DNA from: an uncultured Kordiimonas sp.
GTDB lineage: Bacteria > Pseudomonadota > Alphaproteobacteria > Sphingomonadales > Kordiimonadaceae
NCBI GenBank assembly: GCA_947503575.1
Contig: CANNDZ010000002.1
Coordinates: forward strand, 620,001 to 684,000
Reading direction: 5' to 3'
DNA length: 64,000 nt
Within the stretch, counting starts at the first letter, position 1. Each line of letters begins with the position of its first letter. The notes beneath the pieces were generated by a model. That model had not been told where the DNA came from, did not search any database, and saw only the letters and a list, made by a program, of their open reading frames with translations. Shown here piece by piece: positions 39,681 through 59,389 of the stretch. The position numbers were made by a program, and so were the translations under genes.

Positions 39681-40922
39681 GTGAGCAGAGGAAAAATTGC
39701 AGGTCTTGCGGTATTGCTGCTGGCGGCGGCCGGTGGCTTTTGGGGGTACAGCTATTACCAAAAGATCAAACCATTTCAGGAATTTTCAAACCCTGAGCTG
39801 GTGACACAAAATTTTCGGTCCGCTGCCGAAACATTCCCGACCTATACGCTGAAGGCCCCGCCTGAAACGCTGGCGTTTGCCCGCCGGGATGACATTACCC
39901 TGCCAGAAACCTATGGGTACAAAGGCGAAACCCGGCAACTCGCCGATTTGCTGAACCGCACCTACACCACCGGGTTTTTGGTGGCGGTGGATGACACCAT
40001 CATCAGCGAACAATATTTCCAGAGCGAACAACCGAACGACCGGCACATTATGTTTTCTGTGTCCAAATCTGTTGTGTCCGCCGCCCTGGGCATTGCGCTA
40101 TCAGAAGGCCTTTTGGACAGCATCGAGGACCCGATAACCAAATACCTGCCGGAATTGAATGGCTCCGGCTATGACGGCGTGCGCATCAAGGACATTTTGC
40201 AAATGTCGTCGGGCGTGTATTTCGATGAAGACTATAACGACCCGCTGTCTGACGTGAACCAGATGGGGCTGACAATCGCGACAGGGGGATCGCTCAACAG
40301 TTTTGCCACCGGGCTGGAGCGCAAGTGGGAACCGGGCACCTACAACAATTATGTCAGCGTCGATACGCATGTGCTGGGTATGCTGATCACCAAACAAGCA
40401 GGCCGCACGCTGTCCGAATATGTGGAAGAAAAAATCTGGCAGCCTATGGGCGCAGAATTTGACGGCAAATGGCTAACCGATGGTGTGGGCATGGAAATGG
40501 CCATGGGTGGCTTTAACATGGCTTTGCGCGACATGGCGCGCGTGGGCCGCCTGTATCTGAACCGGGGGGAGTTGAACGGCAAACGCATTGTGCCCGCAGA
40601 ATGGGTAACCGCGTCCATCACGCCCGACGCGCCGCACCTGATGCCGGGCAGTGAAAATTCATCTAACCCTTATGGGTATGGGTATCAGTGGTGGATACCG
40701 GAAAACCCGCACGGGGATTTTTACGCTGCCGGGATTTATTATCAGTATATCTATATCGACCCGACGACAGGCGTGATTGTTGCCAAAACCAGCGCGGACC
40801 GCAAGTTTACCGACCCCAACGAGCCGCGCAAAAAAGGCGAGCAAGTTGCGGCGTTTCAAGCCATTTCAGCCCATGTGGCCGAGCAAATGAAAGCCAAAGA
40901 GTTGGCGGTTGAGGTGGAGTAG
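39681..40922 (+). CDS. Serine hydrolase, class C beta-lactamase family (parent of the repeated 3' end)
   Basis: The 413-residue protein starts at GTG 39681 (AGGGGAGA upstream). An N-terminal membrane anchor or signal (IAGLAVLLLAAAGGFWGYSYY) is followed by a beta-lactamase domain with Ser126-Val-Ser-Lys129 in HIMFSVSKSVVSAALGIAL. YNNYVSVDTHVLGMLI holds the Tyr motif, and FYAAGIYYQYIYIDPTTGVIVAK closes the domain. The last 32 codons (40824-40922) end HVAEQMKAKELAVEVE. That C-terminal segment recurs twice downstream at 42295-42348 and 43418-43516. A 12-bp palindrome, GTGCCTAGGCAC, lies at 40926-40937. The substrate is unknown. Confidence 0.88.
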   Translation: MSRGKIAGLAVLLLAAAGGFWGYSYYQKIKPFQEFSNPELVTQNFRSAAETFPTYTLKAPPETLAFARRDDITLPETYGYKGETRQLADLLNRTYTTGFLVAVDDTIISEQYFQSEQPNDRHIMFSVSKSVVSAALGIALSEGLLDSIEDPITKYLPELNGSGYDGVRIKDILQMSSGVYFDEDYNDPLSDVNQMGLTIATGGSLNSFATGLERKWEPGTYNNYVSVDTHVLGMLITKQAGRTLSEYVEEKIWQPMGAEFDGKWLTDGVGMEMAMGGFNMALRDMARVGRLYLNRGELNGKRIVPAEWVTASITPDAPHLMPGSENSSNPYGYGYQWWIPENPHGDFYAAGIYYQYIYIDPTTGVIVAKTSADRKFTDPNEPRKKGEQVAAFQAISAHVAEQMKAKELAVEVE

Positions 40923-41150
40923 ACAGTGCCTAGGCACGAGACTGCAAAAAGTGCTTTATCGTTGCACAGGGTAATGATTCTACCATATTTAGAAAGGCTT
41001 ACTGATACTAGTAGTTCGACTTTATCCGAGGGCGGTTTTAATTTCTAATTGCAGTCAAAACTTGCTATGGCGATTAGAGAGAGTCGGCCATTATCACTCT
41101 TCTTTGGCCCATACAATATGTCTTATCTTTATCGCTATTGAGGCCTCTTA

Positions 41151-42110
41151 ATGTTGACTGATCATGAAATTAAGTTAGGGAGTAGAAGAACACCTTTCAG
41201 CATCTTTAGTCTTTTTTTCATAATAGCCGTTATTTTTTCGGTTCTACTATTCACTGTGTTTTTTCGCTCTGATGCAATCACAAACAATGCCCCCCCATCG
41301 ACAATGCTTTTCAGTAATACCGGCAGCAAATTGGACTTACTCTTTACCGAATTACTAGTCCGACAGGATAACTCCGCTCCTTTGACTGTTACTATTGCTC
41401 GGATTCAGGACAACTTGCAGAAGCATATCACGGCGACCTTAGAGCTTGAGAGAGCAGTTAATTCAAAGACTATTAATATATACCGAGAACAACTCACCAG
41501 TCTTTATCTAACCCTAGCAGTTTTGGATAGTTCTCTTGACCCAGGAGTTTTTCTTGAAATAGTTGAAAAGAATCAAGAAGCTAGGCAACGTGTCGAGACT
41601 GAGGTCCAAGAAATTATTGAGCAAAATCGGCCTAAGGTTTGGATTGGCAACCTCATTAGCCCTACTAACGCACTTGTCTTACTACAATTTATCGCGACCA
41701 CTTTTCTTGGGGTAATGGTTTGGCGCCATACTTGGCGCGTTAATAAACTGGACCGGCTCACCAATGCTAATCAGCAGTATCAAGCACTCAATTTAACCAT
41801 GATTGATAACCCGGATTTGGCAAAAAAGGTTTTGAGACTAAAGTACGGTGTTGATGTACCTGACAATAATACAGCGTTAAGGTGCTTTGAATTTTTGTAT
41901 GTCACAAATATAATGGAAGATATTTTTGTGGCTACTCGGGATCGCTTGTTCGAGACAAGCCAAGCATCAGCGGCATTTAAAGCCTATTTCCAGCGCCCAT
42001 ACTTTAATGACAACCCACTTATTGGTTCTTTAGTTGCAGGTAACGCTGGATACGACCCGGATTTCGTCAAATACTTGGCGAAAGAGCTAAAAAAACAAGA
42101 CTTAATTTGA
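41151..42110 (+). CDS. Hypothetical two-helix membrane protein, AT-rich
   Basis: No family was recognised in this 319-residue protein. It has an N-terminal helix (FSIFSLFFIIAVIFSVLLFTVFF) and a roughly 130-residue, mostly helical segment with many Glu/Gln (EIVEKNQEARQRVETEVQEI). A second helix is at about residue 180 (LISPTNALVLLQFIATTFLG), followed by a cytoplasmic helical domain of about 120 residues. Base composition and codon use are clearly AT-richer than the flanking genes, which suggests transfer. It lies between the serine hydrolase gene and the first in-frame copy of that gene's 3' end. A sensor or defence role is possible but unsupported. Confidence 0.65.
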   Translation: MLTDHEIKLGSRRTPFSIFSLFFIIAVIFSVLLFTVFFRSDAITNNAPPSTMLFSNTGSKLDLLFTELLVRQDNSAPLTVTIARIQDNLQKHITATLELERAVNSKTINIYREQLTSLYLTLAVLDSSLDPGVFLEIVEKNQEARQRVETEVQEIIEQNRPKVWIGNLISPTNALVLLQFIATTFLGVMVWRHTWRVNKLDRLTNANQQYQALNLTMIDNPDLAKKVLRLKYGVDVPDNNTALRCFEFLYVTNIMEDIFVATRDRLFETSQASAAFKAYFQRPYFNDNPLIGSLVAGNAGYDPDFVKYLAKELKKQDLI

Positions 42111-42489
42111 GGTTATGAGTTTCCTTAACCTGAGCCAATCAAAGACAACCAACATTTCAATATTAACCAAAGGGTGTAACATCATTCGATATTGTGAATT
42201 GATTGCTCTCTCGGAGATTACGCATTTGTTTCGGAATTGGCACAGACGACTGCAAAGCATCGGCGCAATGCATCCTGCAATTATCGCTACCACCTCCCAT
42301 GTGGCAGCACAGATGAAGGCCAAGGAGTTGGCGGTTGAAGTGGAGTAGGCATCAACGGCTCAGAACACTGGCAAACCCTCTTTACATCTATAGTTTATGC
42401 GTATGGTTTAGCGCGTATCCTTCCGCCTAGACAAAGATCATATCCGCTGATTAGATACCGCTGGTTTAGGGATCGTTACGGGGGATATC
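42111..42489 (+). other. 379-bp region holding an in-frame copy of the serine hydrolase 3' end
   Basis: Apart from the small frame at 42268-42348 no gene is seen. ACTGCAAAGC at 42249-42258 is identical to the start of the 43361-43416 repeat, suggesting a shared promoter remnant just before the copied tail. The rest is AT-rich and featureless. Confidence 0.6.
42268..42348 (+). pseudogene. Serine hydrolase 3'-end remnant or 26-residue microprotein
   Basis: ATG 42268 to TAG 42348 encodes 26 residues ending HVAAQMKAKELAVEVE. Over 54 bp (42295-42348) it matches the end of the gene at 39681-40922 at 46 of 54 positions. Most changes are synonymous and the tag ends at the same stop codon. It may be an internally deleted paralogue or an expressed small protein; nothing in the sequence decides between them. 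Confidence 0.7.
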
Positions 42490-43320
42490 ATGGTAAAATA
42501 CTGGTTAGTGGCGTGCCTTTCGCTTGGGGTGATGGGCTTTGCTGAAAGCAGACAACCAACCACCGCGCAGGGCGATGCCCGGCCTGAAATTATGGTTTTG
42601 GGCACGCATCATTTCACGGGCGGCGGGTATGATTACGTAAACCCCGAAGTTGACGACTATCTGTCGCCGCGAAGACAAAAAGAGATCATCGATGTGGTGG
42701 AGCGATTGGCCGCATTCAAGCCAACCAAAATCGCCCTTGAAGTAATGCCCGCCAATGAAGAAGCGCTAAACAGAGCCTACGACGAATACCGGCAGGGTAG
42801 CCGCGAGCTTGGAGTAAGCGAGCGCCAGCAAATCGGTATGCGGCTGGCAGCAAAGTTGGATCACTCAAAACTGTATGCAATTGATTTCAAGAACGGCGGC
42901 ATGGATATTGGCGGGCTGTTTGAGCTGGGCCAACAAACCGGCCAAACCGACATTCTGGACTATTTGAACGGCCTTCAACAGCAAATGTCCGAGCAGGACG
43001 CCAGGCTGAACGCACCCGATGTTACCCTGCGCGAAAGGTTGCTGCGCGAAAACGGCGACGAAGTACGCGACGCACATAATGTGTATCTGACTTTGGCGCA
43101 GATAGGTGACAAGTCCAACCAGTTAGGCGCACAGGAGATGGGCAACTGGTGGGCCAGAAACATGCATATTTTTGCGAACATCAGCCATATTGCTGAGCCG
43201 GGGGACCGCATCCTTGTTATTTATGGGTCCGGTCATAAGTTCCTGCTGGATCAGTTTATCCGCGACTCTCATGAATTCAAACTTGCAGACCCAAGGGCCG
43301 TGTTGAAAGAAACAGACTGA
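42490..43320 (+). CDS. Secreted DUF5694 domain protein
   Basis: The 276-residue protein has a signal peptide (MVKYWLVACLSLGVMGFAES). A TraB/PrgY-like DUF5694 core follows: EIMVLGTHHFTGGGYDYVN, then YLSPRRQKEIIDVVERLAAF, then KPTKIALEVMPANEEALNRAY. A late block reads RILVIYGSGHKFLLDQFI. The conserved GTxHF, the Glu of LEV and the GSGH block resemble the catalytic pattern of the EreA/TraB hydrolase-like superfamily, but the function is not known. It lies between the two copies of the serine hydrolase tail. Confidence 0.78.
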   Translation: MVKYWLVACLSLGVMGFAESRQPTTAQGDARPEIMVLGTHHFTGGGYDYVNPEVDDYLSPRRQKEIIDVVERLAAFKPTKIALEVMPANEEALNRAYDEYRQGSRELGVSERQQIGMRLAAKLDHSKLYAIDFKNGGMDIGGLFELGQQTGQTDILDYLNGLQQQMSEQDARLNAPDVTLRERLLRENGDEVRDAHNVYLTLAQIGDKSNQLGAQEMGNWWARNMHIFANISHIAEPGDRILVIYGSGHKFLLDQFIRDSHEFKLADPRAVLKETD

Positions 43321-43360
43321 CCGGTCATGACGCCCATATACCTGCGTCCGGGAAAGTGAA

Positions 43361-43516
43361 ACTGCAAAGCAGCGACATACTGTGGTACACTCCTTATGGG
43401 GAATGGTTATTCACGCACCGCGCAAAAAAGGTGAGCAAATCGCTGCATTTCAGGCTATTTCAGCGCACGTGGCCGCGCAGATGAAAGCCAAGGAATTGGC
43501 TGTTGAGGTGGAGTAA
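43361..43516 (+). pseudogene. Promoter-like repeat joined to a serine hydrolase 3'-end copy (37-residue frame)
   Basis: 43361-43416 resembles the segment at 44262-44318 (both start CTGCAAA and share TGGGGAATGG). It runs straight into a 99-bp copy (43418-43516) of the last 33 codons of the gene at 39681. By direct count 84 of 99 bases agree, and only two residues differ (Val to Ile, Glu to Ala). An ATG at 43403 reads in frame to the shared stop, giving 37 residues. The arrangement looks like a paralogue whose body was deleted, leaving promoter and tail. The SGNH hydrolase gene begins 6 bp after the stop, so it may be coupled to translation of this tail. Confidence 0.75.
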
Positions 43517-43522
43517 CGCTTG

Positions 43523-44260
43523 ATGTCACTGATAAAAAACCTGTTGGTGTGTATCGGTCTATGGGCCGCCTTTGGGCTAACGCCTGCATCGGCGGAAACA
43601 AACAAAGCTGAAACTCTCAAAATCCTGACGCTTGGCGACAGCCGCGTGGAAGGCGCACGCTCGCATTTTGAAAGCTACCGCTTTGAGCTGTGGAAGCTTT
43701 TGGTACAAAACAACTGGCGCGTTGATTTCATTGGACCGCTTGAGGACGAGGCACGCTATCCGACCGTAATGGGTCAGCGCTTTGACCCGGACCACGCCAG
43801 GGTTGGCGGTTTTACGACCATCGACGTTCTGGAGCATCTGGAAGGTGCACTTGATGAAATCGCGATACCTGACATCGTGCTGGTGGGCATTGGCGGCAAC
43901 GACCTGTTGGGCACCAGAAGCCCTGTGCCGCGTGTTCTTGAAAACCTGCGGAAGATCGTTGGGATATTGCAGGCCAGAAACCAGCATGCCCTGATACTTG
44001 TGGAGCAAATAGCACCGGGTAAGCGCTCGGTCATGCGGCGCGAGTTTCAGGCACGGTTTGATGCGTTTAATGCTGAAATACCCGCGCTTGCAGCCTCTTT
44101 ATCAACCGAGAGTTCGCGCGTTGTTGCGGTGGATATGAGACCCAACTGGTCTGAGGCCTATCTGGCAGACGATGTGCATTATAATGAAACTGGCGCGCGT
44201 CATGTGGCGGAACACTATTTCACTGCGCTAAAGCAAGAGGTTGGGCAGGTAACCGAGTGA
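43523..44260 (+). CDS. Secreted SGNH/GDSL hydrolase
   Basis: The 245-residue protein has a signal peptide (LLVCIGLWAAFGLTPASA). The SGNH blocks are block I ILTLGDSRVEGA with nucleophile Ser, block III IVLVGIGGNDLLGTR with Asn, and block V ADDVHYNETGARHVAEHY with Asp and His. It should be a periplasmic or secreted ester hydrolase (lipase, thioesterase or carbohydrate esterase). The ATG at 43523 is used; its likely ribosome site GGTGGAG lies inside the upstream serine hydrolase tail copy. Confidence 0.87.
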   Translation: MSLIKNLLVCIGLWAAFGLTPASAETNKAETLKILTLGDSRVEGARSHFESYRFELWKLLVQNNWRVDFIGPLEDEARYPTVMGQRFDPDHARVGGFTTIDVLEHLEGALDEIAIPDIVLVGIGGNDLLGTRSPVPRVLENLRKIVGILQARNQHALILVEQIAPGKRSVMRREFQARFDAFNAEIPALAASLSTESSRVVAVDMRPNWSEAYLADDVHYNETGARHVAEHYFTALKQEVGQVTE

Positions 44261-44261
44261 G

Positions 44262-44318
44262 GCTGCAAAACGCTGCCGGATTATGCTATAGTAGCCTTTG
44301 GGGAATGGCCATCCACGC
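44262..44318 (+). promoter_or_regulatory. Candidate promoter and repeat ahead of the DUF2189 gene
   Basis: CTGCAA (44263-44268) and TATAGT (44287-44292) are spaced by 18 bp. The segment is similar to 43361-43416. Both also carry an ATG opening a short frame that starts M-A/V-I-H-A; here it ends after nine codons. Confidence 0.45.
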
Positions 44319-44372
44319 TGAGTATATATACTGAAGCGACTGCGATGGCCTGATGACAAGGGGGGAAGCATC

Positions 44373-45236
44373 ATGACACCGGAAACCGCATCACCACAAC
44401 CAGGCGCGCCCGAAACCGGGCACCAGCCAGCAACCACAACACCGCCCACCCGGGTAAAGGATTTTGAACGCGACCTGCCCGTTAGCGACGCGTTTAACTG
44501 GCTGAAGGCCGGTGCGCAGGACACGTTCGCATCGCCCACCAGCAGCCTGCTGTATGGGTTTGGTGTGTTTACTGTGTCGGTCGTGTTTGTTGCGGCGCTG
44601 TTCCAGTTTGGGTTCAGTTACATTCTGCTGCCGGTCATTGCCGGATTTATGGTGGTCGGGCCTTTGGTTGCCATTGGGCTGTATGGCAAAAGCCGTTTGC
44701 TGGCGGCGGGTGCGCCAAATGTGTCCCTCGGTGAGATGCTGGCCATCAAGGCAAAATCACCGGGCCAGTTGCTGCTGGTTGGGGTTGTGCTGATGCTGAT
44801 AATGACCTTCTGGCTGCGGTTTGCCATTGTGCTCTATGCGCTGTTTTTTGGGCTCGCGCCCTTTGACGGCGTGAAGGAAACCGTGGATACGCTGTTTTTC
44901 ACCGCAACAGGCCGCAGCATGTTGATGGTGGGTACCGCCGTCGGCGGGGCGATGGCGGCCTTGTCTTTTTGTGTAAGCGCCTTTTCCATCCCGATGCTGA
45001 TGAACGAGAAAAAAGACACCATGACCGCCATGGTTTTAAGTGTGGTGATCGCCTGGACCAACAAACCGGTGGTGTTTGTATGGGGTTGTATTGTGCTGGC
45101 TTTGTTTTTGGTCAGCGTGGTGACTGGCTTTTTGGGGTTGATCGTGATTTTCCCGATTTTAGGGCATGGCACATGGCACGCTTACACAGCCTTGCGCCGG
45201 GAGGACGCACTGGCGGCGGCAGAAGGGCAGGCATAA
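44373..45236 (+). CDS. DUF2189 family integral membrane protein
   Basis: The 287-residue protein has about six hydrophobic helices after a Pro/Thr-rich cytoplasmic start. DLPVSDAFNWLKAGAQDTFASPTSSLLYGFGVF is the family hallmark, and WHAYTALRREDAL ends it. DUF2189 proteins are inner-membrane proteins of unknown function, often near cytochrome oxidase genes, which are not seen here. A strong GGGGGAAG ribosome site precedes the ATG. Confidence 0.85.
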   Translation: MTPETASPQPGAPETGHQPATTTPPTRVKDFERDLPVSDAFNWLKAGAQDTFASPTSSLLYGFGVFTVSVVFVAALFQFGFSYILLPVIAGFMVVGPLVAIGLYGKSRLLAAGAPNVSLGEMLAIKAKSPGQLLLVGVVLMLIMTFWLRFAIVLYALFFGLAPFDGVKETVDTLFFTATGRSMLMVGTAVGGAMAALSFCVSAFSIPMLMNEKKDTMTAMVLSVVIAWTNKPVVFVWGCIVLALFLVSVVTGFLGLIVIFPILGHGTWHAYTALRREDALAAAEGQA

Positions 45237-45271
45237 TCCGGCCTACCCTTCGGGCAAATGGATGTCGCCCA

Positions 45272-46636
45272 TCACACAGTGATGCCATCTCGCGCTAGTT
45301 CATCGGCTGTTGCCTTGCGGGCTTGCTGTGCCGGTTTCTCGTCATACCAGCTCACGTCGTCACCATCGGACAGGCTGTCCCGCACCTTCAAAATGCTAAA
45401 CATTCCCCCCATAGTGATGTAACCGAGCGGCCCTTCGGACCCGACCATCGGCGTGCTGTTGTCGGGCACCATCATATGGCCCATGCCTACATGCCTACCG
45501 TGGTCTCCCATGCCGTCAGTGCCCATAACCATAGTGCCCGGCAACGCAGGTGCCAACGCATCCGACAGAGCCTGTCGATCCGCCCCAATGAGCAGGTCAA
45601 GGTTATGTCCCATCTGGGTCATGACATGGTGGGTCATGTGGCAATGCATGGCCCAGTCACCGGGATTGTTGGCAATAAATTCAACTGTGCGTGTCGCACC
45701 GGTGGGCACCAGCACCGTGGTGTCCGGGTGTTGTGCAGTTTCGGGCACAGGGCCGCCGTCGGTCTCGGTCACGGTGAAGGCGTACCCGTGCAGATGGATA
45801 GGGTGGTGATCCATGGCTGACAGGTTGCCAAACCGAATACGCACACGGTCACCGGTTTGCGCCATAAGCGGCGCGGTACCCGGGAAAGCCCGCGCGTTAA
45901 AGGTCAGCACATTAAAGTCTGTCATCTCGTTAGGGTCCGGACGGCGGGTGCCGGGCTTTATCGACCATTCGCTCAGCATCAGCGCATAGTCCCGGTCCGG
46001 TAGCGGCCCTTTTGGCACGCGCGGATGCACCACAATCATGCCAATCAGGCCCATGGCCATCTGGGTCATTTCGTCGTGGTGGCTGTGGTACATGAAGGTG
46101 CCATGCTGCACCAGCTTGAACTCGTAGCGGAAGGTCTCGCCGGGTTCGATGGGCGCCTGACTAAGCCCGCCAACGCCGTCCATACCGCTGGGCAAAATAA
46201 GTCCGTGCCAGTGCACCGTGGTGGCGGCGGGCAAACGATTGGTCACATAAATGCGCACCATGTCGCCTTCAACAGCCTCGATGGTGGGGCCATGCACCTC
46301 CCCGTTGTAGCCCCAGCACTGCGCCGTCAAACCGGGGGCAAATTCATGGTCGACAGGTTCGGTGATCAGATGAAATACCTTTACGCCGTCCACCAGCTTA
46401 TAGGGCAGAGTGCTGCCGTTTGGCGTGATAACGGGGCGATAGTCAACGCCCGGTGTGCCCGGCGCGAAGGTCTCAGCTGGGTCAACGGTTTGCACGCTGG
46501 TGTCTGCGGTTTGCGCTGTTGCACGGCTGGCGGCAAGCCCGGTGAGCGCAAGCGCCCCGCCGATCCTGAAGGTGTCTCTGCGTGAAAATGACGTTTTGGA
46601 GCGTGAAAGTGAAGTTTTGGGGCGTGAAATGGTCAT
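45272..46636 (-). CDS. Multicopper oxidase, CopA/laccase-like, Tat-exported
   Basis: The 454-residue protein has a twin-arginine signal (SRRDTFRIGGALALTGLAA). All four copper blocks are present: TVHWHGLILPSG, FMYHSHHDEMTQM, HHPIHLHGYAFTV and WAMHCHMTHHVMTQMGH. A Met/His-rich insert (GDHGRHVGMGHMMVPDN) lies before the C terminus, as in copper-tolerance oxidases. It probably oxidises Cu(I) or phenolic substrates in the periplasm. Its ATG overlaps the stop of the upstream TolC-like gene by 4 bp, so they form one operon. The region before the twin arginines holds a 7-codon repeat. Confidence 0.93.
   Translation of the reverse strand: MTISRPKTSLSRSKTSFSRRDTFRIGGALALTGLAASRATAQTADTSVQTVDPAETFAPGTPGVDYRPVITPNGSTLPYKLVDGVKVFHLITEPVDHEFAPGLTAQCWGYNGEVHGPTIEAVEGDMVRIYVTNRLPAATTVHWHGLILPSGMDGVGGLSQAPIEPGETFRYEFKLVQHGTFMYHSHHDEMTQMAMGLIGMIVVHPRVPKGPLPDRDYALMLSEWSIKPGTRRPDPNEMTDFNVLTFNARAFPGTAPLMAQTGDRVRIRFGNLSAMDHHPIHLHGYAFTVTETDGGPVPETAQHPDTTVLVPTGATRTVEFIANNPGDWAMHCHMTHHVMTQMGHNLDLLIGADRQALSDALAPALPGTMVMGTDGMGDHGRHVGMGHMMVPDNSTPMVGSEGPLGYITMGGMFSILKVRDSLSDGDDVSWYDEKPAQQARKATADELARDGITV
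46580..46629. repeat. 21-bp in-frame repeat in the Tat signal region of the multicopper oxidase
   Basis: 46580-46600 and 46601-46621 are near-identical 21-bp units (18 of 21 positions), and 46622-46629 is a third partial copy. Read on the minus strand they give tandem heptapeptides PKTSLSR and SKTSFSR directly before the twin-arginine motif. Confidence 0.85.
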
Positions 46637-48006
46637 GAGTGATCCTCTCCTGCGGCGGCGCTTGCTGGTGCAAAATTCTGGAAGGCGTCAGCGACTGAAA
46701 CATTGACGCCCGCCAGCAAGGCGTCAGCCTGAATGCGGGCCAGCGCCAATAGACGCTGCATATCAATTGCGGTAAGCCTGTTTTCCAGTTGGCGAACGCG
46801 CGCATCAATCAACCGGAGCGGGCCAATTTGCATGGCGTTCAACTGCCGGGTTTCAAAATCAAACTCTTCTTCTGTTTGGCTAACCAGCATGGGCGTAAGG
46901 CTGTCTGCTGCGGTCTTGGCAATATCCATCAACCCCAGCACAGCCCGCGCGCGGTTGGCGACAGAAAACGCAAGCGCCCGGTACCGCAACTCTGCCGCTT
47001 CAAGCGCGGCACGTGCGGCTCCTGTCCGGGCTTTGCCCCCATCAAACAGCGGCAGGCTAAAGCTGGCACCCAGTCCAAAGCTTGCCTCGCCGTCCTCGCG
47101 CTCAAGCGCGGCCTCGGTTTCAAGATGATCGAGCCAAACGGATACCTGCGCCAGACCAACCTGAACCCCAAGCGCGCGGATGCGTTCCCGCTCTGCGGCC
47201 AGCATCAGACTTTTTTCCAGCGCCCGCGCTACAAAGGCATCAGCAGCCGGTTCACTGTCAGGTGCTGTGCGCTCAAGAACCACTGAAACATCAGCATCCA
47301 CCGGCACACCGACGGTATTGGCAAGTCCTTCGACGCTATCAAGCTGGGCTAGCTGCGCCTGCCCCAGAGCCAACTGGCTTTCCACCGCCTGCCGCTGATA
47401 CAGCGCAAAGTCCCCCGCCGTCAGGTTGCCTGCCCGCGACAAAATACGCGCAGCCTTCGCAGCACTGTCACGCGCGACCGCGATTTGCTGCAGCACATCA
47501 ATAGACTGCTGCCTTGCCCACAGCTCAACAACAGCCACCCTTGTTTCTGCAATGATGCGCACAATGGCATCAATTGTCTGGGCTTCAACCCGTTGCCGGT
47601 CCGCTGCGGCAACCAACATCCGCCGGTTGCGAGTTAATAAATTGCCGAGAGCGAACCCAACGCCAAAATCGAGCGTGGGGCTGCCGCCATCAAACAGAAC
47701 TTGTCCGGTAACCGCCGGGTTGACCAACAAGCCCGCCTGCACCTCTTGTGCTGTCGCGATATTCAAATCCTCCAGCGCGGCCTGCAAAAACAGATTATGC
47801 CGGAGTGCAGCACGAATGGTGTCACTCAGGGTCAGCGTGCCGCTAAGAGGTGCTGCGGCGTAACTAAACTCATGCGGCAGGCTGACGCCAACACGGTCTG
47901 AAACCGCTGTGTTAACAACCGAGCGGCGTGTGTCAGGCGCGTAGGAAGCGCAACCGCTTAGACTAAGAGCGATAAGGCTGAAAACAGCCCATTGATTCAA
48001 TTTCAT
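46633..48006 (-). CDS. TolC family outer-membrane lipoprotein
   Basis: About 457 residues. A lipoprotein signal with lipobox LSGC is followed by the duplicated helical outer-membrane efflux protein pattern: LTLSDTIRAALRHNLFLQAALEDLNIATA, then GASFSLPLFDGGKARTGAARAALEAAELRYRALAF. No RND or membrane-fusion partner is adjacent, but it is coupled to a multicopper oxidase, an arrangement recalled from copper resistance loci. The start at 48006 is chosen for its AAGGA site and complete lipoprotein signal; an upstream in-frame start would place 15 residues before it. Confidence 0.87.
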   Translation of the reverse strand: MKLNQWAVFSLIALSLSGCASYAPDTRRSVVNTAVSDRVGVSLPHEFSYAAAPLSGTLTLSDTIRAALRHNLFLQAALEDLNIATAQEVQAGLLVNPAVTGQVLFDGGSPTLDFGVGFALGNLLTRNRRMLVAAADRQRVEAQTIDAIVRIIAETRVAVVELWARQQSIDVLQQIAVARDSAAKAARILSRAGNLTAGDFALYQRQAVESQLALGQAQLAQLDSVEGLANTVGVPVDADVSVVLERTAPDSEPAADAFVARALEKSLMLAAERERIRALGVQVGLAQVSVWLDHLETEAALEREDGEASFGLGASFSLPLFDGGKARTGAARAALEAAELRYRALAFSVANRARAVLGLMDIAKTAADSLTPMLVSQTEEEFDFETRQLNAMQIGPLRLIDARVRQLENRLTAIDMQRLLALARIQADALLAGVNVSVADAFQNFAPASAAAGEDHS

Positions 48007-48047
48007 ATGTATAATTCCTTGAGTTGAGTTGAGGCCAAAGACCAAAC

Positions 48048-48389
48048 TCAATCAAGGAGGCAATCACACCGTGAAACAGGGGTTGCCGGTCGAGGCGGCG
48101 CATGCTGGTAAGGGCGCATGAAGCTGACAGAACCTGCGCCGAGTTCCTGCGGCACCATCGGCGCATGTGCGACAACGGCAGCAGGGCTGGACAGGTCAGA
48201 CCCTGATTTATGGACAACCGCATCATCAACGCATGTTTCGCAGTCCGCGTCCTGCGCGGTCGCAGGTGCCTGATCGTGGCAGTCCTGATCCGGCTGCATG
48301 TACACAGACCGGTCATCCGCAGCCGCCGCGCACTGGCAACCCGCAATGGCCAGCGAAAAGGCAAACAGAATGTGTGCGATTGATCTCAT
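48048..48389 (-). CDS. Small Cys-rich exported protein of the copper operon
   Basis: The 113-residue protein has a signal peptide (MRSIAHILFAFSLAIAGCQC) whose IAGC could also be a lipobox. A Cys/His/Asp segment follows with CHDQ, CETC and later CDC, giving six or more cysteines in a short polypeptide. No family was recognised. It is the first gene of the TolC-like/multicopper oxidase unit (42 bp before the TolC gene). A metal-binding or metal-sensing periplasmic role is inferred from composition and context. Confidence 0.6.
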   Translation of the reverse strand: MRSIAHILFAFSLAIAGCQCAAAADDRSVYMQPDQDCHDQAPATAQDADCETCVDDAVVHKSGSDLSSPAAVVAHAPMVPQELGAGSVSFMRPYQHAPPRPATPVSRCDCLLD

Positions 48390-48486
48390 AGCTTTGAAAT
48401 ACCGCAAACAGAATAGTCTGTCCAGACAACGAACCGGCCAACTGGACACTGTAAGGCTAGCAAACAAAGGGCCGTGATCAGACCCG

Positions 48487-49812
48487 TTACTTGCTCGGGA
48501 TTAAAATCAGCTCCATCTGACGCGGTATCAAATATTCTGCGCCGTCGTCGGTAATGACCGCCATTTCTTCAACTGAAATGGTTTTCAGCGTGCCGTCCGC
48601 GCGTTTCCAGGCGTGGAAGCCGTCAAACGCGAACACCATGCCTGCCTTCAGGCGTTTTTGCGCAGCGGGGCGGATGCTTTGCGTGCGAGAGCCTCCCAAA
48701 TTCGGCCCGGTGTCGTGGGCCACATACCCAACCGGGTGCCCGGTGGACCAGGGCACATACTCTGACCCTGCCGTCTTCATCAGCTTGCTTTGGGCGGCAT
48801 CCACATCAATACCGCGCACACCGGGGCGCATCGCCTGAAACGCCGCATAGCCGCCAGCGCGAGCGCTTTCCCAATAATATTGGATGTCATCAGGGGCCTG
48901 TGTTTCCCCCGGTTTCAGAACATAGGCGAAACGCTGAATGTCACTGACCCACCGGTCATGCAGCTTAATACCAAAATCGATTTGGATGACGTCGCCCGGC
49001 ATTATAACCTTGTCGGTGGCGTGGGAATGCCCCCTGTCCGGCCCGGAGTTCACGTTGGGGTTTTGGTCCGGGGCCCAGGCGTCGGTTACGCCCAACTCCC
49101 GCATGCGCTGTTTCAGGAATTTGGCGATATCCGCATCTGTGGATGTACCCGGAGTAACTTGCGCATAGGCATCAATCTCAAGCTGGGCGGTAATTTCCGC
49201 CGCCTTGCGCATGATATCCACCTCTGCCGGTAATTTGACCGACAGCCATTCATACACCACGTCCTCTGACGACTTTAACCGTGCACTAAAGTCAGGCCCC
49301 AGCAGGCCGGTCAGCGTTTGCCACTGTGTGTAACTCAGGCCATCTGCCTGCGCGTTGTTGGCGGACATGTTAACGGCGATGGAGGGGAAATCTCTCTCGC
49401 GGATAAAGTCTGCTGCTTGCTGCATCGCCGAAGAGCCGCGCGGCACGGGAATAACTGTATCATGGATATTCAGGCTATCGAGCGCGGTTGCTTCGCCTGC
49501 GGGTGAAAACACCAGGGAGTGGAAGCCGGTGTCATCAATGTAGAACATGAAGGCAGCCGTGGAGCCCGCATTTTCACAGCCCACATGATCGGCAAGCGGG
49601 TCATTGTTGTTTTCCCGGCAAATCACCAGCCACAGGTCTGTGCCTGTCGCGCGCAAAGCTTGCGGCAGCAGGGTGGCAATACGGGCGTTGCGGATTTCAG
49701 GCCAGGGCGACCCGCCTTCCTTATAGTCTGCACCCTGTTCTGCGGCGCGAGCCGGGGCGAAAACAAATGCAAAAACGCAAAAAGTTACGATGATCCACAA
49801 AAACCGCTGCAT
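48487..49812 (-). CDS. Exported M24 family metallopeptidase (Xaa-Pro aminopeptidase-like)
   Basis: The 441-residue protein has a signal peptide (FLWIIVTFCVFAFVFAPARA). A creatinase-type N-terminal domain precedes a pita-bread domain with metal ligands Asp in IQIDFGIKL, Asp in VSDIQRFAY, His in STGHPVGYVAHD and Glu in ISVEEMAVITD. The position usually occupied by Glu in the xxEPGxY block reads GMVFAFDGFHAWKR, so one canonical ligand is replaced, perhaps by Asp. Activity on proline peptides is likely but not assured. It is divergent from purT. Confidence 0.82.
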   Translation of the reverse strand: MQRFLWIIVTFCVFAFVFAPARAAEQGADYKEGGSPWPEIRNARIATLLPQALRATGTDLWLVICRENNNDPLADHVGCENAGSTAAFMFYIDDTGFHSLVFSPAGEATALDSLNIHDTVIPVPRGSSAMQQAADFIRERDFPSIAVNMSANNAQADGLSYTQWQTLTGLLGPDFSARLKSSEDVVYEWLSVKLPAEVDIMRKAAEITAQLEIDAYAQVTPGTSTDADIAKFLKQRMRELGVTDAWAPDQNPNVNSGPDRGHSHATDKVIMPGDVIQIDFGIKLHDRWVSDIQRFAYVLKPGETQAPDDIQYYWESARAGGYAAFQAMRPGVRGIDVDAAQSKLMKTAGSEYVPWSTGHPVGYVAHDTGPNLGGSRTQSIRPAAQKRLKAGMVFAFDGFHAWKRADGTLKTISVEEMAVITDDGAEYLIPRQMELILIPSK

Positions 49813-49986
49813 GGCCCTACCCTTCTACATACTTTGTATGTTTCCCAACGTAGAGTAGATAGCATGTGCGGACCAGCGGGTTTTTAGACCATTAGGGTTC
49901 CGCCACCACCACCAATGGTTGCCCCCTCTTGCCAATCCCGGCACAGCCAGTAGATTACGCGCAAACACATTACGCAAAGGGCTGTC

Positions 49987-51162
49987 ATGGGACCGGAAAC
50001 AACCGCGAAAATTCTGCTTTTGGGCAGCGGCGAACTGGGCAAGGAACTGGTGATCAGCCTGCAGCGGCTGGGATGCCATGTTATTGCCTGCGATAGCTAT
50101 GAAGGCGCACCCGCCATGCAGGTCGCAGATGAAGCAATCATATTTGATATGCTGGATGCCGACAGGCTGGGCGCGGTAATAGATGACCGCGCACCCGATT
50201 ATATCGTGCCCGAGATCGAAGCCATCGCAACCGATGTGCTCGTGACAAAAGAAGCAGACGGCCACTGTGTTATCCCGTCGGCGCGCGCCGTGAACCTAAC
50301 CATGAACCGGGACCGCATCCGCGACCGCGCCGCAGAACTTGGTTTGCGCACAGCCCGGTTTGCCTATGCGGAATCAGAAGATGACCTGGTGGCGCGCGCG
50401 GCAGACATTGACGGCAAGGTGGTCATCAAGCCAGTGATGAGCTCGTCCGGCAAGGGTCAGAGCACAGCAGACGGCGAGGCCGAAGTGCGGGCCGCGTGGC
50501 AATTTGCGATCAAGGGTATGCGCGGCAACCGCCGCCGGGTGATTGTGGAAGAATTTATTGATTTCGACTGCGAAATCACGCTGTTAACAGTCAAACAGCG
50601 CGGTGGGCCAACGCTGTTTATGCCGCCTATTGGCCATGTGCAGGAACGCGGGGACTATCAATGGAGCTGGCAACCCGCAGAGCTGAACCCCGCTGCCATC
50701 CGCCAAGCGGAAACCATGGCAAAATTAATCACCGATGACCTGACAGAAGGCGTTGAAAGGGCGGCTGGTCTGTTTGGGGTCGAGTTTTTTGTAACAAAGT
50801 CCGGTGACGTGATTTTCAGCGAGTTAAGCCCCCGCCCGCATGACACAGGGCTGGTGACGCTGTTTACTCAGTCGCTGAGCGAATTTGACCTGCATGCGCG
50901 CGCCCTGCTGGGGTTGCCGATTACAGGCAAACCGTTCGCACGGTCAGGGGCCAGTCACGTGATTTTGGCAGGGGCAAACGACACCGGGCCTTATACCGTC
51001 ACAGGATTGGCAGAGGCCTTGACAGAAAAAGACAGCGATGTACGCCTTTTTGGCAAGCCGGTGATGAAACCATACCGGCGGCTGGGGGTTGCGCTGGCAC
51101 CAAGCATTGATGAAGCGCGGCAGGTTGCCAGCAAGATCGCCATCAGAAAGGCGTCTAATTAG
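49987..51162 (+). CDS. purT: Formate-dependent phosphoribosylglycinamide formyltransferase PurT
   Basis: The 391-residue ATP-grasp enzyme has KILLLGSGELGKELVISLQRLGCHVIACDSYEGAPAMQVAD at its N terminus. The ATP-grasp core includes KPVMSSSGKGQS, and the late FVTKSGDVIFSELSPRPHDTGLVTL and FDLHARALLGLP are characteristic PurT blocks. It converts GAR, formate and ATP to formyl-GAR in purine synthesis, an alternative to PurN. Length equals that of characterised PurT. Its stop overlaps that of the convergent PEP-CTERM gene by 4 bp. Confidence 0.97.
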   Translation: MGPETTAKILLLGSGELGKELVISLQRLGCHVIACDSYEGAPAMQVADEAIIFDMLDADRLGAVIDDRAPDYIVPEIEAIATDVLVTKEADGHCVIPSARAVNLTMNRDRIRDRAAELGLRTARFAYAESEDDLVARAADIDGKVVIKPVMSSSGKGQSTADGEAEVRAAWQFAIKGMRGNRRRVIVEEFIDFDCEITLLTVKQRGGPTLFMPPIGHVQERGDYQWSWQPAELNPAAIRQAETMAKLITDDLTEGVERAAGLFGVEFFVTKSGDVIFSELSPRPHDTGLVTLFTQSLSEFDLHARALLGLPITGKPFARSGASHVILAGANDTGPYTVTGLAEALTEKDSDVRLFGKPVMKPYRRLGVALAPSIDEARQVASKIAIRKASN

Positions 51163-51932
51163 CTAGCGGCAAATTGCCCGCGCATTTGGAAGCGACCCAT
51201 CACCACCAACGCCAGCAACAACATCAACAGTGTTGATGGTTCCGGCACTGTAATCGCCTCGGTGATAACAAGTGTGGCCTGGGCAAACGCCACATTGCGA
51301 CGACCATTGCCCGCCGCCGGATTACCACCAGATATAAAATCCAGTGTGCCAATGGTTGTGCCATCAAAATTGCCCACCGTGGCACCGTTGACAGTCAGGC
51401 CACTATCAGAAATTAGAAGCCCACCATCCCGGCCTGGCCTGCCGTTCACGCCCGTTAAAATGGCGTCATTGTTCACAGCTGTGATCAGGCTGATGACATA
51501 AGTGCCGGCCGTAGAAAACAAAGTGCCTGCACCTGTTGCAATGCTGGCAGTGCCAAGGCCGACAGCCGCACTGCCCATGGCCTGCACAACGCCGCCCGCA
51601 CCGCTAACTAGTGATGATATGGAGCCGGGAACGCCGTCGCCGCCCGTACCAAAGGTCAGGGCAGACGTGATGCCCCCAAAGGATACCAGATAATTGATGC
51701 TCCATTCATCCGGGTGGATCGTGTTGCAGATGCTGACAATTGTAGAGCTGTTTGTTGTCGTCACCTCACTACCGCAGGGCGACAGATTGATGTTTTCGCC
51801 CAAGGCAACCGGGGCCAAGGGGCCGATATCCGCATTGATATCAATATAAGGCTGCCGCGCATGAGACGCAGCACTGGCACCAACCAAAGCGAGGGTGACA
51901 AGCGCAACACGGCAAAGAAAACGATTAATCAT
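51159..51932 (-). CDS. PEP-CTERM sorting domain protein
   Basis: The 257-residue protein has a signal peptide (FLCRVALVTLALVGASAASHA). A Gly/Ala/Ser/Thr-rich mid-region with no recognised fold follows. The C-terminal sorting signal reads VPEPSTLLMLLLALVVMG then a basic end (RFQMRG). The Pro-Glu-Pro, the hydrophobic span and the Arg cluster are the exosortase recognition pattern, so the protein should be processed at the inner membrane and placed on the surface or in extracellular matrix. The ATG at 51932 is used. The divergent neighbour is a TPR lipoprotein of the same type of system. Confidence 0.9.
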   Translation of the reverse strand: MINRFLCRVALVTLALVGASAASHARQPYIDINADIGPLAPVALGENINLSPCGSEVTTTNSSTIVSICNTIHPDEWSINYLVSFGGITSALTFGTGGDGVPGSISSLVSGAGGVVQAMGSAAVGLGTASIATGAGTLFSTAGTYVISLITAVNNDAILTGVNGRPGRDGGLLISDSGLTVNGATVGNFDGTTIGTLDFISGGNPAAGNGRRNVAFAQATLVITEAITVPEPSTLLMLLLALVVMGRFQMRGQFAAS

Positions 51933-52190
51933 GAACAAGCGGCCTTTAGATTTGTACCAGCAATCCGACCACCCAAGAATCAGGAGATATCACAAAGGTC
52001 AGACTGAGTAAACATTCCGAAAGCCACGCACGGATAAAGCAGGTATGGCGGAAGGCGAACGGCGCATAAATATGCCTTTCACTCAGATGTGTATTGATAA
52101 AGGCGACATGTTCGATACAATTGCGTACATTAATGGGGGTGGCTTGGCCGTGTAAGCGCGGCACAACAACATCAGTGCAGAACGGATTGT

Positions 52191-54356
52191 ATGCGCCGCT
52201 TTTATTCTGTTTTTTCTTTGAAGTTTCTAACCGCCTTGTGCTGTTTGGCGTTGGCATCATGTGGCGACACCGATGACGTGCCACCACCACCCCCGGTCAT
52301 TCTGGAAACTGTAGAGCTTCAGGCCCTGTATGATGAAGCTGATTTCCGCGCACTGGTTGCGGCGGTAAAGGCCAAAGAGCAAGCAGAGCAGGCAACAGAC
52401 CCGGACTATATCTTACAAGCACGCGGATATTTAGCCCTGCTGGACAGCATTGGTGCCGCGCTTGCGCTGGAGAAACTGCAAGAAGAGCAGCGGGACACCG
52501 ATGTTTATGTTCTGTTGCGGGCGCGCACGCTGTTGATGGATGGGGCTTTGAACCGCGCGGTTCGCATCGTAACCGACCATGAATTTGGCGGTGAAAACAT
52601 ATATGAAGCACAGGTTCTGCTGGGCGATATGCAATTTTTGCAGGGCGAGTTCATGACGGCGGTAGCGCACTATTCCTCGGCCGCAGAGCTGGCACCCAGC
52701 AAATTTGAAGCCTATATTGGACGCGCGCAAACATACCTGAGACTTGGCTCCATCGATCAAGCGGAAGCCGATGCGCTGCTGGCCGTGCGCCATGCGCCCA
52801 ACAATACACTCAGTCACTATGTTCTGGGCACAGTTTACAATCAAAAAGCACAATTTGACGATGCGAAGACCCAGTTCCAGCGCGCGGTAGACTTGTATCC
52901 CTACAATGTACAAGCCCTTTTAGGGTTAGTGAATACGGCGATACTGGAAGGTGACTATGCGGGTGCAGAAACACTGCTGGACACAGTGTACAGCGTATCC
53001 CCGGAAGACAACACAGCGAAGTTTTTTTCCGCCATGCTGTTGGCTGTAAAAGGCGATGATACAGCCGCGCGTGAACACCTGATAAAACTGTCTTTTGTTG
53101 GCGACGCCAACCCGCAAACCGCCCGCCTGCTGGGGCATGTGGCATACCGGCTTGGCGAAAGGGACCTTGCACTGCGTAAATTGCAATCCGTCCTGGAGGT
53201 CGCGCCATTTGACCGTGTATCAAGGTTGATCGCGGCGGAAATCCTTTTATCGGACAATGCCGCAGATGAGGCGCTGTTGCTGTTGAACCCTATGGTCGCG
53301 GACATAAACACCACCGACTTGTCAGCTGTGTCAATGGCTGCAACAGCAACCGCCGTGCTGGGTGATTTTGACCGGGCGATTGCCTACAGCAAACGGGCGA
53401 TTGAACTGGCTGAGGCGCCTGATCAGATGCTGGACGCATCGCTGCTGGCACAAGACATAAAGCCATCAACAGTAGCTGTGATGAAGCGGCAATTGGCCAG
53501 TTACCATTTCAGCAACGGCGAAACAAACGCCGCCGCTGCCGTGCTGGAACAGATGATCAAAGAGGATGCTGGCGATACAACAAGCCTATTGTTGTTATCA
53601 AACATACATATGCAGGACGGGAATTATTCAGCGGCGATTGTTGCAGCAAAGCGACTAATCGACACGCACCCGTCATCCCCCCTTGGGCACAATGCATTGG
53701 CCGCCACCCTGCACCGACAGGGAGGAAAAGATGAAGCGCTGGCGGCCTATGACCGCGCGATTGACTTGGCGCCCGGTTATGTATCTGCCCGCAAAAACAG
53801 GGGGACGCTGTATTTGGAACAAACAGCCTATGATAAGGCAGCTGAAGACCTGAAAACTGTTCTGGATGCCACGCCTGATGACGTACAGACCCAGTTTATG
53901 TACGCGCGGGCGCTTGTTGGGCTAAAGCGGCCGGATGAGGCGCTGGACTACTTCAATGATGTGGCAAAAGTGTTCCCAAACTCGGTTAATGTTTTGCTGT
54001 ACCGGTCACGAGCGGTTGCATCAGTCGGGCGTCATGGGGAAGCGGCTGCCCTTGTTGAAGACGCACTGGAGCAAAATAAAATTCAAAACGCGGTGCCAAC
54101 ATCCGTTTTGGAGGAAACATTGGCATCCTACAGGGCGGTTTTAGCGGCTGAAGAAGCCGAAAAACAACGGGAAGCTGCTGAGGCTGCTGAAAGAGAAAAG
54201 AGAGCAGAGCAGAGATTGCGTGAAGCCGCAGAAGCGGCCCGAGCTGCGCAAGACGCACAAGATAAAAGCAAAAAACCGGACAGTAAGCCGGAGAGCAAGC
54301 CGGAAAAACCCGACACCAAATCTGAAGACGACCCGCCAAAAAACAGCCACCGATAG
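52191..54356 (+). CDS. TPR-repeat lipoprotein, PEP-CTERM system PrsT-like
   Basis: The 721-residue protein has a lipoprotein signal with lipobox LASC. It then has roughly a dozen and a half TPR units, for example ALLGLVNTAILEGDYAGAETLLDTVYSVSPED and EALAAYDRAIDLAPGYVSARKNRGTLYLEQ. It ends in a 70-residue Glu/Ala/Lys coiled-coil and Lys/Pro/Asp/Ser-rich tail. Domain order and size match PrsT-type TPR lipoproteins linked to exosortase/PEP-CTERM export and exopolysaccharide loci. No exosortase (EpsH) gene lies in the window. It is divergent from a PEP-CTERM protein gene, sharing a 258-bp gap. Confidence 0.85.
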   Translation: MRRFYSVFSLKFLTALCCLALASCGDTDDVPPPPPVILETVELQALYDEADFRALVAAVKAKEQAEQATDPDYILQARGYLALLDSIGAALALEKLQEEQRDTDVYVLLRARTLLMDGALNRAVRIVTDHEFGGENIYEAQVLLGDMQFLQGEFMTAVAHYSSAAELAPSKFEAYIGRAQTYLRLGSIDQAEADALLAVRHAPNNTLSHYVLGTVYNQKAQFDDAKTQFQRAVDLYPYNVQALLGLVNTAILEGDYAGAETLLDTVYSVSPEDNTAKFFSAMLLAVKGDDTAAREHLIKLSFVGDANPQTARLLGHVAYRLGERDLALRKLQSVLEVAPFDRVSRLIAAEILLSDNAADEALLLLNPMVADINTTDLSAVSMAATATAVLGDFDRAIAYSKRAIELAEAPDQMLDASLLAQDIKPSTVAVMKRQLASYHFSNGETNAAAAVLEQMIKEDAGDTTSLLLLSNIHMQDGNYSAAIVAAKRLIDTHPSSPLGHNALAATLHRQGGKDEALAAYDRAIDLAPGYVSARKNRGTLYLEQTAYDKAAEDLKTVLDATPDDVQTQFMYARALVGLKRPDEALDYFNDVAKVFPNSVNVLLYRSRAVASVGRHGEAAALVEDALEQNKIQNAVPTSVLEETLASYRAVLAAEEAEKQREAAEAAEREKRAEQRLREAAEAARAAQDAQDKSKKPDSKPESKPEKPDTKSEDDPPKNSHR

Positions 54357-54483
54357 TAAGCAGGATCAGCAGCGATATGGGCACCCCCCGTTTGGTGCAG
54401 TGCACACAACCGTGAAAATATATGTCAAAATCAGAACTGCTTGTTCGTTACTGTTAGGAACGCAACAACAGGGAAACCAGATT

Positions 54484-54990: not shown

Positions 54991-55089
54991 CACCGCCCTC
55001 GGCAACAGCACCTGCGTCAAAAAAGTCTGTGCAATCTGCATCAGACCGGGCGATAAAGGCTGCATGGCTGATGCTTTTAGGGGGATGAT

Positions 55090-56568: not shown

Positions 56569-56621
56569 GGTCAGTCCTTTCAGCCGACCATATTGGTGCA
56601 ATCCTCACCGCACAGGGTTCT

Positions 56622-57038: not shown

Positions 57039-57049
57039 CCCTTTGGTGG

Positions 57050-58756: not shown

Positions 58757-58783
58757 GCTGACTTCCCTCAAAGGGAGGATGAC

Positions 58784-59314: not shown

Positions 59315-59342
59315 GCGCTTACTACCGTCACTGGAGACACAA

Positions 59343-59368: not shown

Positions 59369-59389
59369 ATTTGTAACTATATGGTGCGC

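Follow-up and report, generated by a model that had tools for sequence, protein, structure and literature searches.

Stranded 3' ends of a serine hydrolase gene in a Kordiimonas genome as probable scars of serial allele displacement

We analysed a window of 64,000 nucleotides from an uncultured Kordiimonas sp. (contig CANNDZ010000002.1); coordinates are those of the window, and all features described lie on the + strand. The locus opens with a Kordiimonas-type serine hydrolase gene, S12 (39681..40922; Pfam Beta-lactamase), the sole full-length copy, whose final 33 codons including the stop form tail 1 (40824..40922). Two further ends of an S12 gene are stranded downstream, namely tail 2, the final 18 codons (42295..42348), and tail 3, the final 33 codons (43418..43516). 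The first-pass annotation had reported this repeated C-terminus, with nearly all changes synonymous, only two residue changes in the 99-bp copy and the stop position retained in both lone copies, and the recount bore it out. Tail 2 matches tail 1 at 46/54 bases and tail 3 at 84/99; codon by codon, tail 3 differs from tail 1 by 12 synonymous changes, 2 non-synonymous changes (V->I, E->A), plus 1 change within the stop codon, and tail 2 by 6 synonymous and 2 non-synonymous changes. A repeat search placed the three copies in register at 40819-40921, 42245-42347 and 43413-43515, and a whole-genome DNA search with the S12 tail recovered 43418-43515 (E=1.8e-26) and 42296-42348 (E=8.2e-12). No fourth copy was found genome-wide among the 18 DNA matches, the next best of which had E=0.32. 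A dispersed repeat family was ruled out: the genome has three copies of the tail, and two of the core motif in repeat A, described below.

The S12 protein carries PF00144 at residues 99-377 (E=1.8e-34) and an SxxK motif, SVSK, at residue 126. Among solved structures its best match is 8rlj (E=1.1e-52), a serine hydrolase related to class C beta-lactamases, followed by 6-aminohexanoate-dimer hydrolases (E about 2e-43). Scores against the NCBIfam class C beta-lactamases were far under the cut-offs in the 25 of 33 families listed, and a drug-hydrolysing role is not indicated by these matches. The best stretch aligned to solved structures stops at residue 372 or 373 in 20/21 of the sequences listed; the tail is outside the S12 catalytic domain as delimited by alignment.

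Between S12 and tail 2 lies an AT-rich gene, ORF319 (payload 1; 41151..42110), with a GC content of about 0.40-0.42 against 0.48-0.58 in the surrounding windows. It matched no Pfam, NCBIfam, PHROG or PADLOC family, was absent from 97/97 relatives at E<=0.001 and from the plasmids and phages searched, and had a single match in the PDB, at E = 0.92. Tail 2 is followed by a DUF5694 gene (payload 2; 42490..43320; PF18950, E=6.4e-43), for which there was no solved relative at E <= 1. At E<=1e-20 this gene was present in 1/18 congeners, G006, where it stands directly 3' of an intact S12. The DNA upstream of it (42423..42486) is homologous to the G006 S12-DUF5694 intergenic DNA; the comparison of the tail 2-DUF5694 DNA with that intergenic region scored 42, with 0/2000 shuffles as good. 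One PADLOC match of DUF5694 fell under the threshold (E = 0.0065). Six bases past the tail 3 stop begins an SGNH/GDSL hydrolase gene (payload 3; 43523..44260; PF13472, E=3.1e-16), present at E<=1e-25 in 1/97 relatives, G018, and there also directly 3' of an intact S12. The right-hand neighbour is a DUF2189 membrane protein gene (44373..45236; PF09955, E=2.3e-32). Segments at the locus measure 1.2-1.4 kb, with a single gene in each. A Pfam scan of the 18 frames with 90 codons or more from S12 to the receptor gene found no integrase or recombinase family; of the shorter frames, the scan took in only the 77-residue frame holding tail 2.

Immediately before tail 3 stands repeat A (43362..43416), 55 bp that duplicate the region upstream of DUF2189. 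Its diverged counterpart in that upstream region, A', spans 44263..44318 (0/2000 dinucleotide shuffles as good), and the core motif of repeat A has two sites only in the genome, allowing up to 2 mismatches. A' (44262-44305) resembles the DUF2189 upstream regions of G006 and a further relative, G017 (2/1000 shuffles each), and shows no similarity to those of G018 and G027 (116/1000 and 618/1000 shuffles as good). Repeat A matched the G017 region weakly (20/1000 shuffles) and did not match those of G006 (209/1000), G018 (114/1000) or G027 (75/1000). At the joint before tail 3, homology to the DUF2189 upstream region stops at 43416 and tail 3 starts at 43418; by eye, the three bases ACG are shared by the two sides, a possible microhomology. 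Before tail 2 a short stretch (42249..42262) resembles repeat A (score 24); this is suggestive only, 36/2000 shuffles being equally good, and it does not fix the joint there. The region 40923-41000 had no significant similarity to repeat A (186/2000 shuffles). The heptamer CTGCAAA occurs near junctions on the + strand at 40942, 42250, 43362 and 44263; we did not rely on it as a recombination core, its count in the window being at chance (18 vs 18.4 expected, both strands). Upstream of tails 2 and 3 there is no S12 body sequence, the DNA before them aligning to the S12 genes of G006, G018 and the present genome only as well as shuffled sequence does, and a candidate S12-body piece adjoining tail 3 was dropped on the same grounds. 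The DNA lost at the joints would be the resident S12 body.

At E<=1e-60, S12 matches were found in 29 relatives, one in each of 28 and two in G012 only, where the pair lies on different contigs and the second gene is 40%-identical. In the relatives examined, S12 and the genes before it are conserved, and the gene 3' of S12 varies. In G006, G018 and G017 the DUF2189 gene is either on a different contig from S12 or far away from it, and the layout S12-X-DUF2189, with X a variable gene, is that of this genome alone among those sampled. G006 has an S12 remnant of its own 3' of its DUF5694 gene (47/69 bases, 0/2000 shuffles as good), decayed to the point that the residue is changed in 10/22 codons. 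Between G006 and G018 the 3' half of S12 is 0.91-0.93 identical, against 0.61-0.83 in windows upstream of S12, and identity drops beyond the S12 end; at fourfold sites it is 0.66 in S12 vs 0.42-0.46 in FAdesat, FtsX, QOR and TBDR. This pattern of identity shows that the S12 3' half was exchanged between the two lineages. A donor tract in the S12 body of the present genome was sought and rejected, identity to G006 and G018 being uneven with no clear tract, and no recent donor stood out clearly among the species sampled. Genes of the comEC and dprA types are present; they are widespread, occurring in 10/14 and 11/14 control genomes respectively, and their presence does not show competence.

The tails were under coding constraint until recently. 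The 12 synonymous to 2 non-synonymous changes from tail 1 to tail 3 correspond to a neutral P of 1e-6, and no more than about a quarter of the tail 3 branch would have been unconstrained, if half of the synonymous changes fall on the tail branch. Over the first 25 codons the synonymous depth between tails 1 and 3 is 10, vs 9-14 between tail 1 and the seven relatives listed, a rough argument given that synonymous sites are near saturation between these species. Because the changes are mostly synonymous and near between-species depth, the tails appear to have belonged to whole genes until recently, and loss of the S12 bodies looks recent relative to the divergence of the tails.

We think it probable that the tails are scars of S12 alleles serially displaced by homology-facilitated illegitimate recombination. 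The neighbours of the lone tails stand directly 3' of intact S12 in G006 and G018, so each tail with its gene looks like what remains, on the right side, of an earlier S12 + X allele. Further support comes from the match of the DNA before DUF5694 to G006 intergenic DNA, repeat A beside tail 3, the coding-type divergence of the tails, the S12 remnant in G006, the exchange of S12 between the G006 and G018 lineages, and the presence of comEC- and dprA-type genes. The S12 gene would be the left anchor of a zone holding different genes in different Kordiimonas species, and S12 + X alleles, X being SGNH, DUF5694 or ORF319, would have existed in related species. No S12-ORF319 or S12-X-DUF2189 allele was found in any genome, so the parental alleles are hypothetical. 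At the first event the resident S12 would have been followed by SGNH. S12 + DUF5694 DNA from a relative would have recombined by homology in or upstream of it, and the right side would have been closed by end-joining within the last codons of the resident S12, leaving tail 3 before SGNH. In a second, like event S12 + ORF319 would have come in and left tail 2 before DUF5694, which would make tail 3 the older and tail 2 the younger. Natural transformation is a possible route. The tails would have no function of their own, save that the end of tail 3 may act as ribosome-binding DNA for SGNH.

Other explanations of the stranded ends were weighed against serial displacement. The first-pass annotation had proposed that the C-terminus is made as a free microprotein from in-frame ATGs giving 26 and 37 residues. 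Those ATGs exist, at 42268 and 43403, and each frame also has an earlier start, an ATG at 42115 (77 residues) for tail 2 and a GTG at 43382 (44 residues) for tail 3. Translation of the tails under selection, as microproteins or as leader peptides of the genes that follow, would fit the open in-frame ATGs and the few non-synonymous changes; we regard it as highly improbable. By eye, no well-spaced ribosome-binding site precedes either ATG, the N-termini are unrelated, the ATG of the 37-residue frame lies within the copied DUF2189 upstream DNA and not in hydrolase DNA, and the tail falls outside the catalytic domain. A genus search for stand-alone tails, informative for 7/18 congeners (in the other 11 not even the S12 gene end was found), returned S12 gene ends alone; it overlooked the decayed G006 remnant and hence excludes well-kept copies only. 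That remnant, the sole other stranded end found, is decaying. The annotation's other proposal, an old tandem array of paralogues lately stripped of its bodies, stands in so far as the S12 bodies are gone and, it seems, were lost recently; the tandem array itself is unsupported. A row of S12 paralogues, every one followed by a gene of its own and all but one stripped of the body by deletion, would account for multiple S12 ends in one locus, and the coding-type divergence fits if the bodies were lost late. The annotation had suggested looking in relatives for full-length paralogues at the locus; none was seen, with a single S12 match in each of the 17/17 relative stretches examined, and genome-wide 28/29 relatives have one S12, the G012 pair being on separate contigs. 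Each tail acts like an allele in being linked to a gene that follows an intact S12 in a different species, and an array would not account for the copy of DUF2189 upstream DNA beside tail 3; we judge it unlikely.

Gene ends can also be duplicated by integration. The 3' end of icd is the attachment site for phage 21 and element e14, and such 3'-end integrations leave short duplications with mostly synonymous changes and stop codons kept. Were the S12 3' end an attachment site of small integrative elements, each insertion restoring the end with a synonymous version brought by the element and stranding the old one at the far side, short 3'-end duplications would be expected and joints would recur, as they do, within the final 40 or so codons both here and in G006. 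Against this, no integrase or recombinase turned up in the 18 scanned frames, the inserts are 1.2-1.4 kb with one gene apiece, the longest run identical in the three tails is 8 bases with no core defined, and repeat A goes unexplained; we find the idea improbable. A linear donor fragment consisting of an S12 end, X and DUF2189 upstream DNA might instead have circularised and entered by a single crossover in the S12 tail. The resident S12 body would then be kept, the A/tail joint would be the ligation joint of the fragment, the map would be identical to that left by serial displacement, and the length of each stranded piece would equal that of the arm on the fragment. Such an arm would measure just 54-99 bases and be about 85% identical, which is unfavourable for homologous recombination, and incoming and resident S12 bodies are indistinguishable with the sampled genomes. 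Circularisation of linear DNA with a single crossover is reported for E. coli (PMC3240628); at this locus we judge it quite unlikely. Several observations count against serial displacement itself. They include the failure to find an S12-ORF319 or S12-X-DUF2189 allele in any genome, the poorly fixed joint before tail 2, the lack of a clear donor for the S12 body among the sampled species, the layout with DUF2189 seen in this genome alone, and the upstream similarity that fails for A' in G018 and G027 and for A in all but G017. In addition, the three joints seen, two here and one in G006, all lie within the last 40 or so S12 codons, and random end-joining does not predict such clustering. Joining might favour the S12 3' end, so that single genes from related species are repeatedly added there without an integrase, like the growing end of a cassette array. 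We hold this doubtful; if true, the three joints in this genome and G006 would be its earliest indication.

If the tails are indeed scars of displaced alleles, they would give the arrival order of the neighbouring genes, each lone gene end marking a former allele, and the synonymous depth of a lone end would put the displaced allele at a distance close to that between species. Variable zones are usually ascribed to mobile elements; here none is in sight. Should the pattern prove common, short in-frame gene ends before accessory genes would be a cheap marker of serial allele displacement in ordinary metabolic loci, and would carry a caution that a short orphan ORF is not shown to be a microprotein by its low dN/dS.

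Our search of the literature on gene remnants, insertion hotspots and Kordiimonas genomes found nothing on the stranded-tail pattern, and the comparison is with better-known systems. The locus shares with phage 21 and e14 at icd a duplicated 3' gene end with synonymous differences, and differs in that no integrase, element-sized insert or defined core was found. The 3' regions of rhs loci carry toxin domains. These loci have a constant 5' gene part and strings of displaced, variable 3' regions, as outlined in PMC5361080, whereas the S12 tails are nearly the same sequence and hold no known domain. In homology-facilitated illegitimate recombination, as PMC3240628 describes it, homology serves at one end, the other is closed non-homologously, mostly with 3-10 bp microhomology, and resident DNA is lost. 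S12 body sequence is likewise missing before tails 2 and 3; the process is known there from transformation and conjugation experiments, whereas here the product alone is seen and the parents are missing. In Vibrio T6SS arrays, according to PMC5361080 (2017), incoming modules, anchored by one-sided homology, oust the resident gene and push what remains of it downstream, successive events build the array, a displaced effector 3' end is described, and the authors propose a process akin to homology-facilitated illegitimate recombination. The likeness would lie in the one-sided homology anchor, the displaced 3' ends and the serial growth of the array. At our locus the anchor is an ordinary serine hydrolase, the payloads are hydrolases or unknown genes and not effector-immunity pairs, and what is stranded amounts to just 18 and 33 codons, with no evident use. 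The locus appears to be a new, if small, instance of an already known way in which genomes grow, here around an ordinary enzyme gene.

The gene at 39681-40922 (+ strand) of this 3.6-Mb genome, from Kordiimonas or a genus very near it, encodes an S12-type serine hydrolase (S12) of 413 residues, with PF00144 covering residues 99-377 and the catalytic SxxK motif at residue 126. We found its last 33 codons (tail 1, 40824..40922) in a second copy at 43418-43516 (tail 3) and its last 18 codons in a second copy at 42295-42348 (tail 2). These repeated ends, reported in the first-pass annotation, were confirmed and lie beyond chance, and a whole-genome search returned no other close copy, the next match having E = 0.32. 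In 20 of the 21 solved relatives listed, the match to S12 stops at residue 372 or 373. The duplicated tail sits C-terminal of the conserved domain, and therefore neither tail 2 nor tail 3 has the SxxK motif. All three tails share the ending KELAVEVE, which was absent from 17 of 17 relatives.

An S12 match occurred in 29 relatives, and we compared the locus in 17 of these. A fatty-acid desaturase gene lay upstream of S12 in 14 of the 17, the stretch being too short to reach it in the other 3, and in some an FtsX-type gene intervened. Downstream, a TonB-dependent receptor gene stood on the opposite strand in 15, the contig stopping earlier in the other 2. The distance from S12 to the receptor gene was ~0.5 kb in relative G017, 10.9 kb in G006, and 18.8 kb in the window, where it forms a growth zone (40923-59764). 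G006 has DUF5694 as the first window gene recognised 3' of S12, G018 the SGNH hydrolase gene, G003 a second beta-lactamase-like gene, G014 a DUF123 gene, and G010 a quinone-reductase-like gene; in G017 the receptor gene itself comes first. In the window the zone also holds ORF319 (41151-42110), an AT-rich frame of 319 residues in which membrane-like stretches can be seen by eye; it could be assigned to no family, and searches of 97 relatives and of plasmids and phages gave no homologue.

DUF5694 follows tail 2 and SGNH follows tail 3. Among 18 congeners, only G006 had a DUF5694 match at E <= 1e-20, 75% identical and immediately after S12; four relatives from other families of the order carried weaker homologues. 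SGNH was matched at E <= 1e-25 only in G018 among 97 relatives, again immediately after S12. Since both genes directly follow S12 in these relatives, the tails occupy the place of other species' whole S12. The short segment ahead of DUF5694 (42423-42486) shares homology with the DNA that separates S12 from DUF5694 in G006 (score 42; 0/2000 dinucleotide shuffles). The S12 stop and the SGNH start overlap in G018, and in the window 6 bases separate the tail 3 stop from the SGNH ATG, the last codons of tail 3 containing GAGGTGGAG, by eye a ribosome-binding-like stretch. The G018 stretch L056 (oriented 5149-7299) carries one 716-residue frame fusing SGNH with the second beta-lactamase-like gene, and tblastn matches omit the last 9 residues of the former and the first 24 of the latter; this frame would be a further joint of the same kind as at the S12 tails, perhaps yielding a chimeric two-domain enzyme.

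The joint at tail 3 is preceded by 55 bases, repeat A (43362-43416), that are a diverged copy of A' (44263-44318) ahead of DUF2189 (0/2000 shuffles); their core motif occurs only in these two places genome-wide. A' (44262-44305) resembles the DNA upstream of DUF2189 in G006 and in G017 (2/1000 shuffles each), with no significant similarity in G018 (116/1000) or G027 (618/1000). Repeat A matched the corresponding DNA of G017 weakly (20/1000) and that of G006 (209/1000), G018 (114/1000) and G027 (75/1000) not significantly. The likeness of A to A' indicates that A is a piece of the DNA upstream of a DUF2189 gene and that an S12 tail stands behind it in DUF2189's place. Just such a repeat A plus S12 tail would be left if the breakpoint of an allele S12-DUF5694-(A)-DUF2189 lay within A and was fused to the S12 tail of an allele S12-SGNH-(A')-DUF2189. 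The 37-residue frame has an in-frame ATG because that ATG belongs to A; the corresponding place in A' reads MAIHAEYIY-stop. At 42249-42262, ahead of tail 2, a shorter stretch matches A only suggestively (36/2000 shuffles). DUF2189 itself (44373-45236) adjoins the S12 zone in the window, yet is not beside S12 in G006, G018 or G017. The heptamer CTGCAAA occurs on the + strand near module junctions (40942, 42250, 43362, 44263), its whole-window count being at chance.

Tails 1 and 3 differ by 12 synonymous and 2 non-synonymous changes, against a neutral expectation of ~3.4 non-synonymous per synonymous change at the observed transition/transversion ratio (P = 1e-6). At the E->A position, E is absent in 8 of 9 other listed sequences and present in G015, and most simply the change would have arisen in tail 1, leaving no more than one non-synonymous change to the branch of tail 3. 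If this branch carries half of the synonymous changes, no more than ~24% of it was without constraint (95%); for tail 2 alone the bound is weak (45%). Across the first 25 codons, synonymous depth was 10 for tails 1 and 3 and 9-14 for tail 1 and seven listed relatives, a rough gauge because synonymous sites are near saturation at such distance. The mostly synonymous change, this depth and the common KELAVEVE together argue that the tails were long the ends of working genes, within one clade of related species, and were stranded late. G006 holds a decayed S12 remnant after its DUF5694, 47/69 identical to its own S12 (0/2000 shuffles) and altered in residue in 10 of 22 codons. It matches the window S12 less well (78/2000 shuffles) and so seems to belong to the G006 lineage. 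The remnant shows the later state of such scars and that G006 underwent the same kind of event.

Exchange of S12 between species is suggested by G006 and G018, whose identity is 0.91-0.93 over the last ~600 bases of S12 and 0.61-0.83 upstream of the gene, dropping sharply beyond the stop, where the following genes differ. The window genome and G006 are 0.79-0.82 identical over the same part, so the G006/G018 likeness exceeds what constraint alone explains. Between G006 and G018, fourfold-site identity was 0.66 in S12, versus 0.43 in FAdesat, 0.44 in FtsX, 0.46 in QOR and 0.42 in TBDR, and likewise high (0.62) in the small DUF1697 gene. The 3' half of S12 thus seems to have passed between the two lineages.

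The tails were most likely produced by serial displacement through homology-facilitated illegitimate recombination. Incoming DNA would be anchored on the left by homology in S12 and upstream, and on the right would be end-joined inside the resident S12 tail, an event that would have happened twice. PMC3240628 gives 3-10 bp of microhomology in most cases of this recombination, and deletions of similar size. The genome has ComEC- and DprA-type genes, both widespread. Weak points of the proposal are that no parental allele was present among the genomes sampled, that all joints seen (n=3) lie within the last ~40 codons of S12, and that the joint at tail 2 is marked by no more than the suggestive match to A. 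An att-type site at the end of S12 is possible and would yield a similar map, but a scan of 18 frames lying between S12 and the receptor gene turned up no integrase family; a circular single crossover, from which a similar map is expected, is also possible.

With serial displacement as the preferred reading, the earlier proposal of stranded ends of lost S12 bodies was right in outline, their source most likely being successive alleles instead of an array of paralogues. The alternative of a free C-terminal microprotein becomes superfluous. The displacement model published for Vibrio T6SS arrays (PMC5361080) is the same in form as that proposed here, and the stranded S12 ends are a neat, small new case of an already known process.
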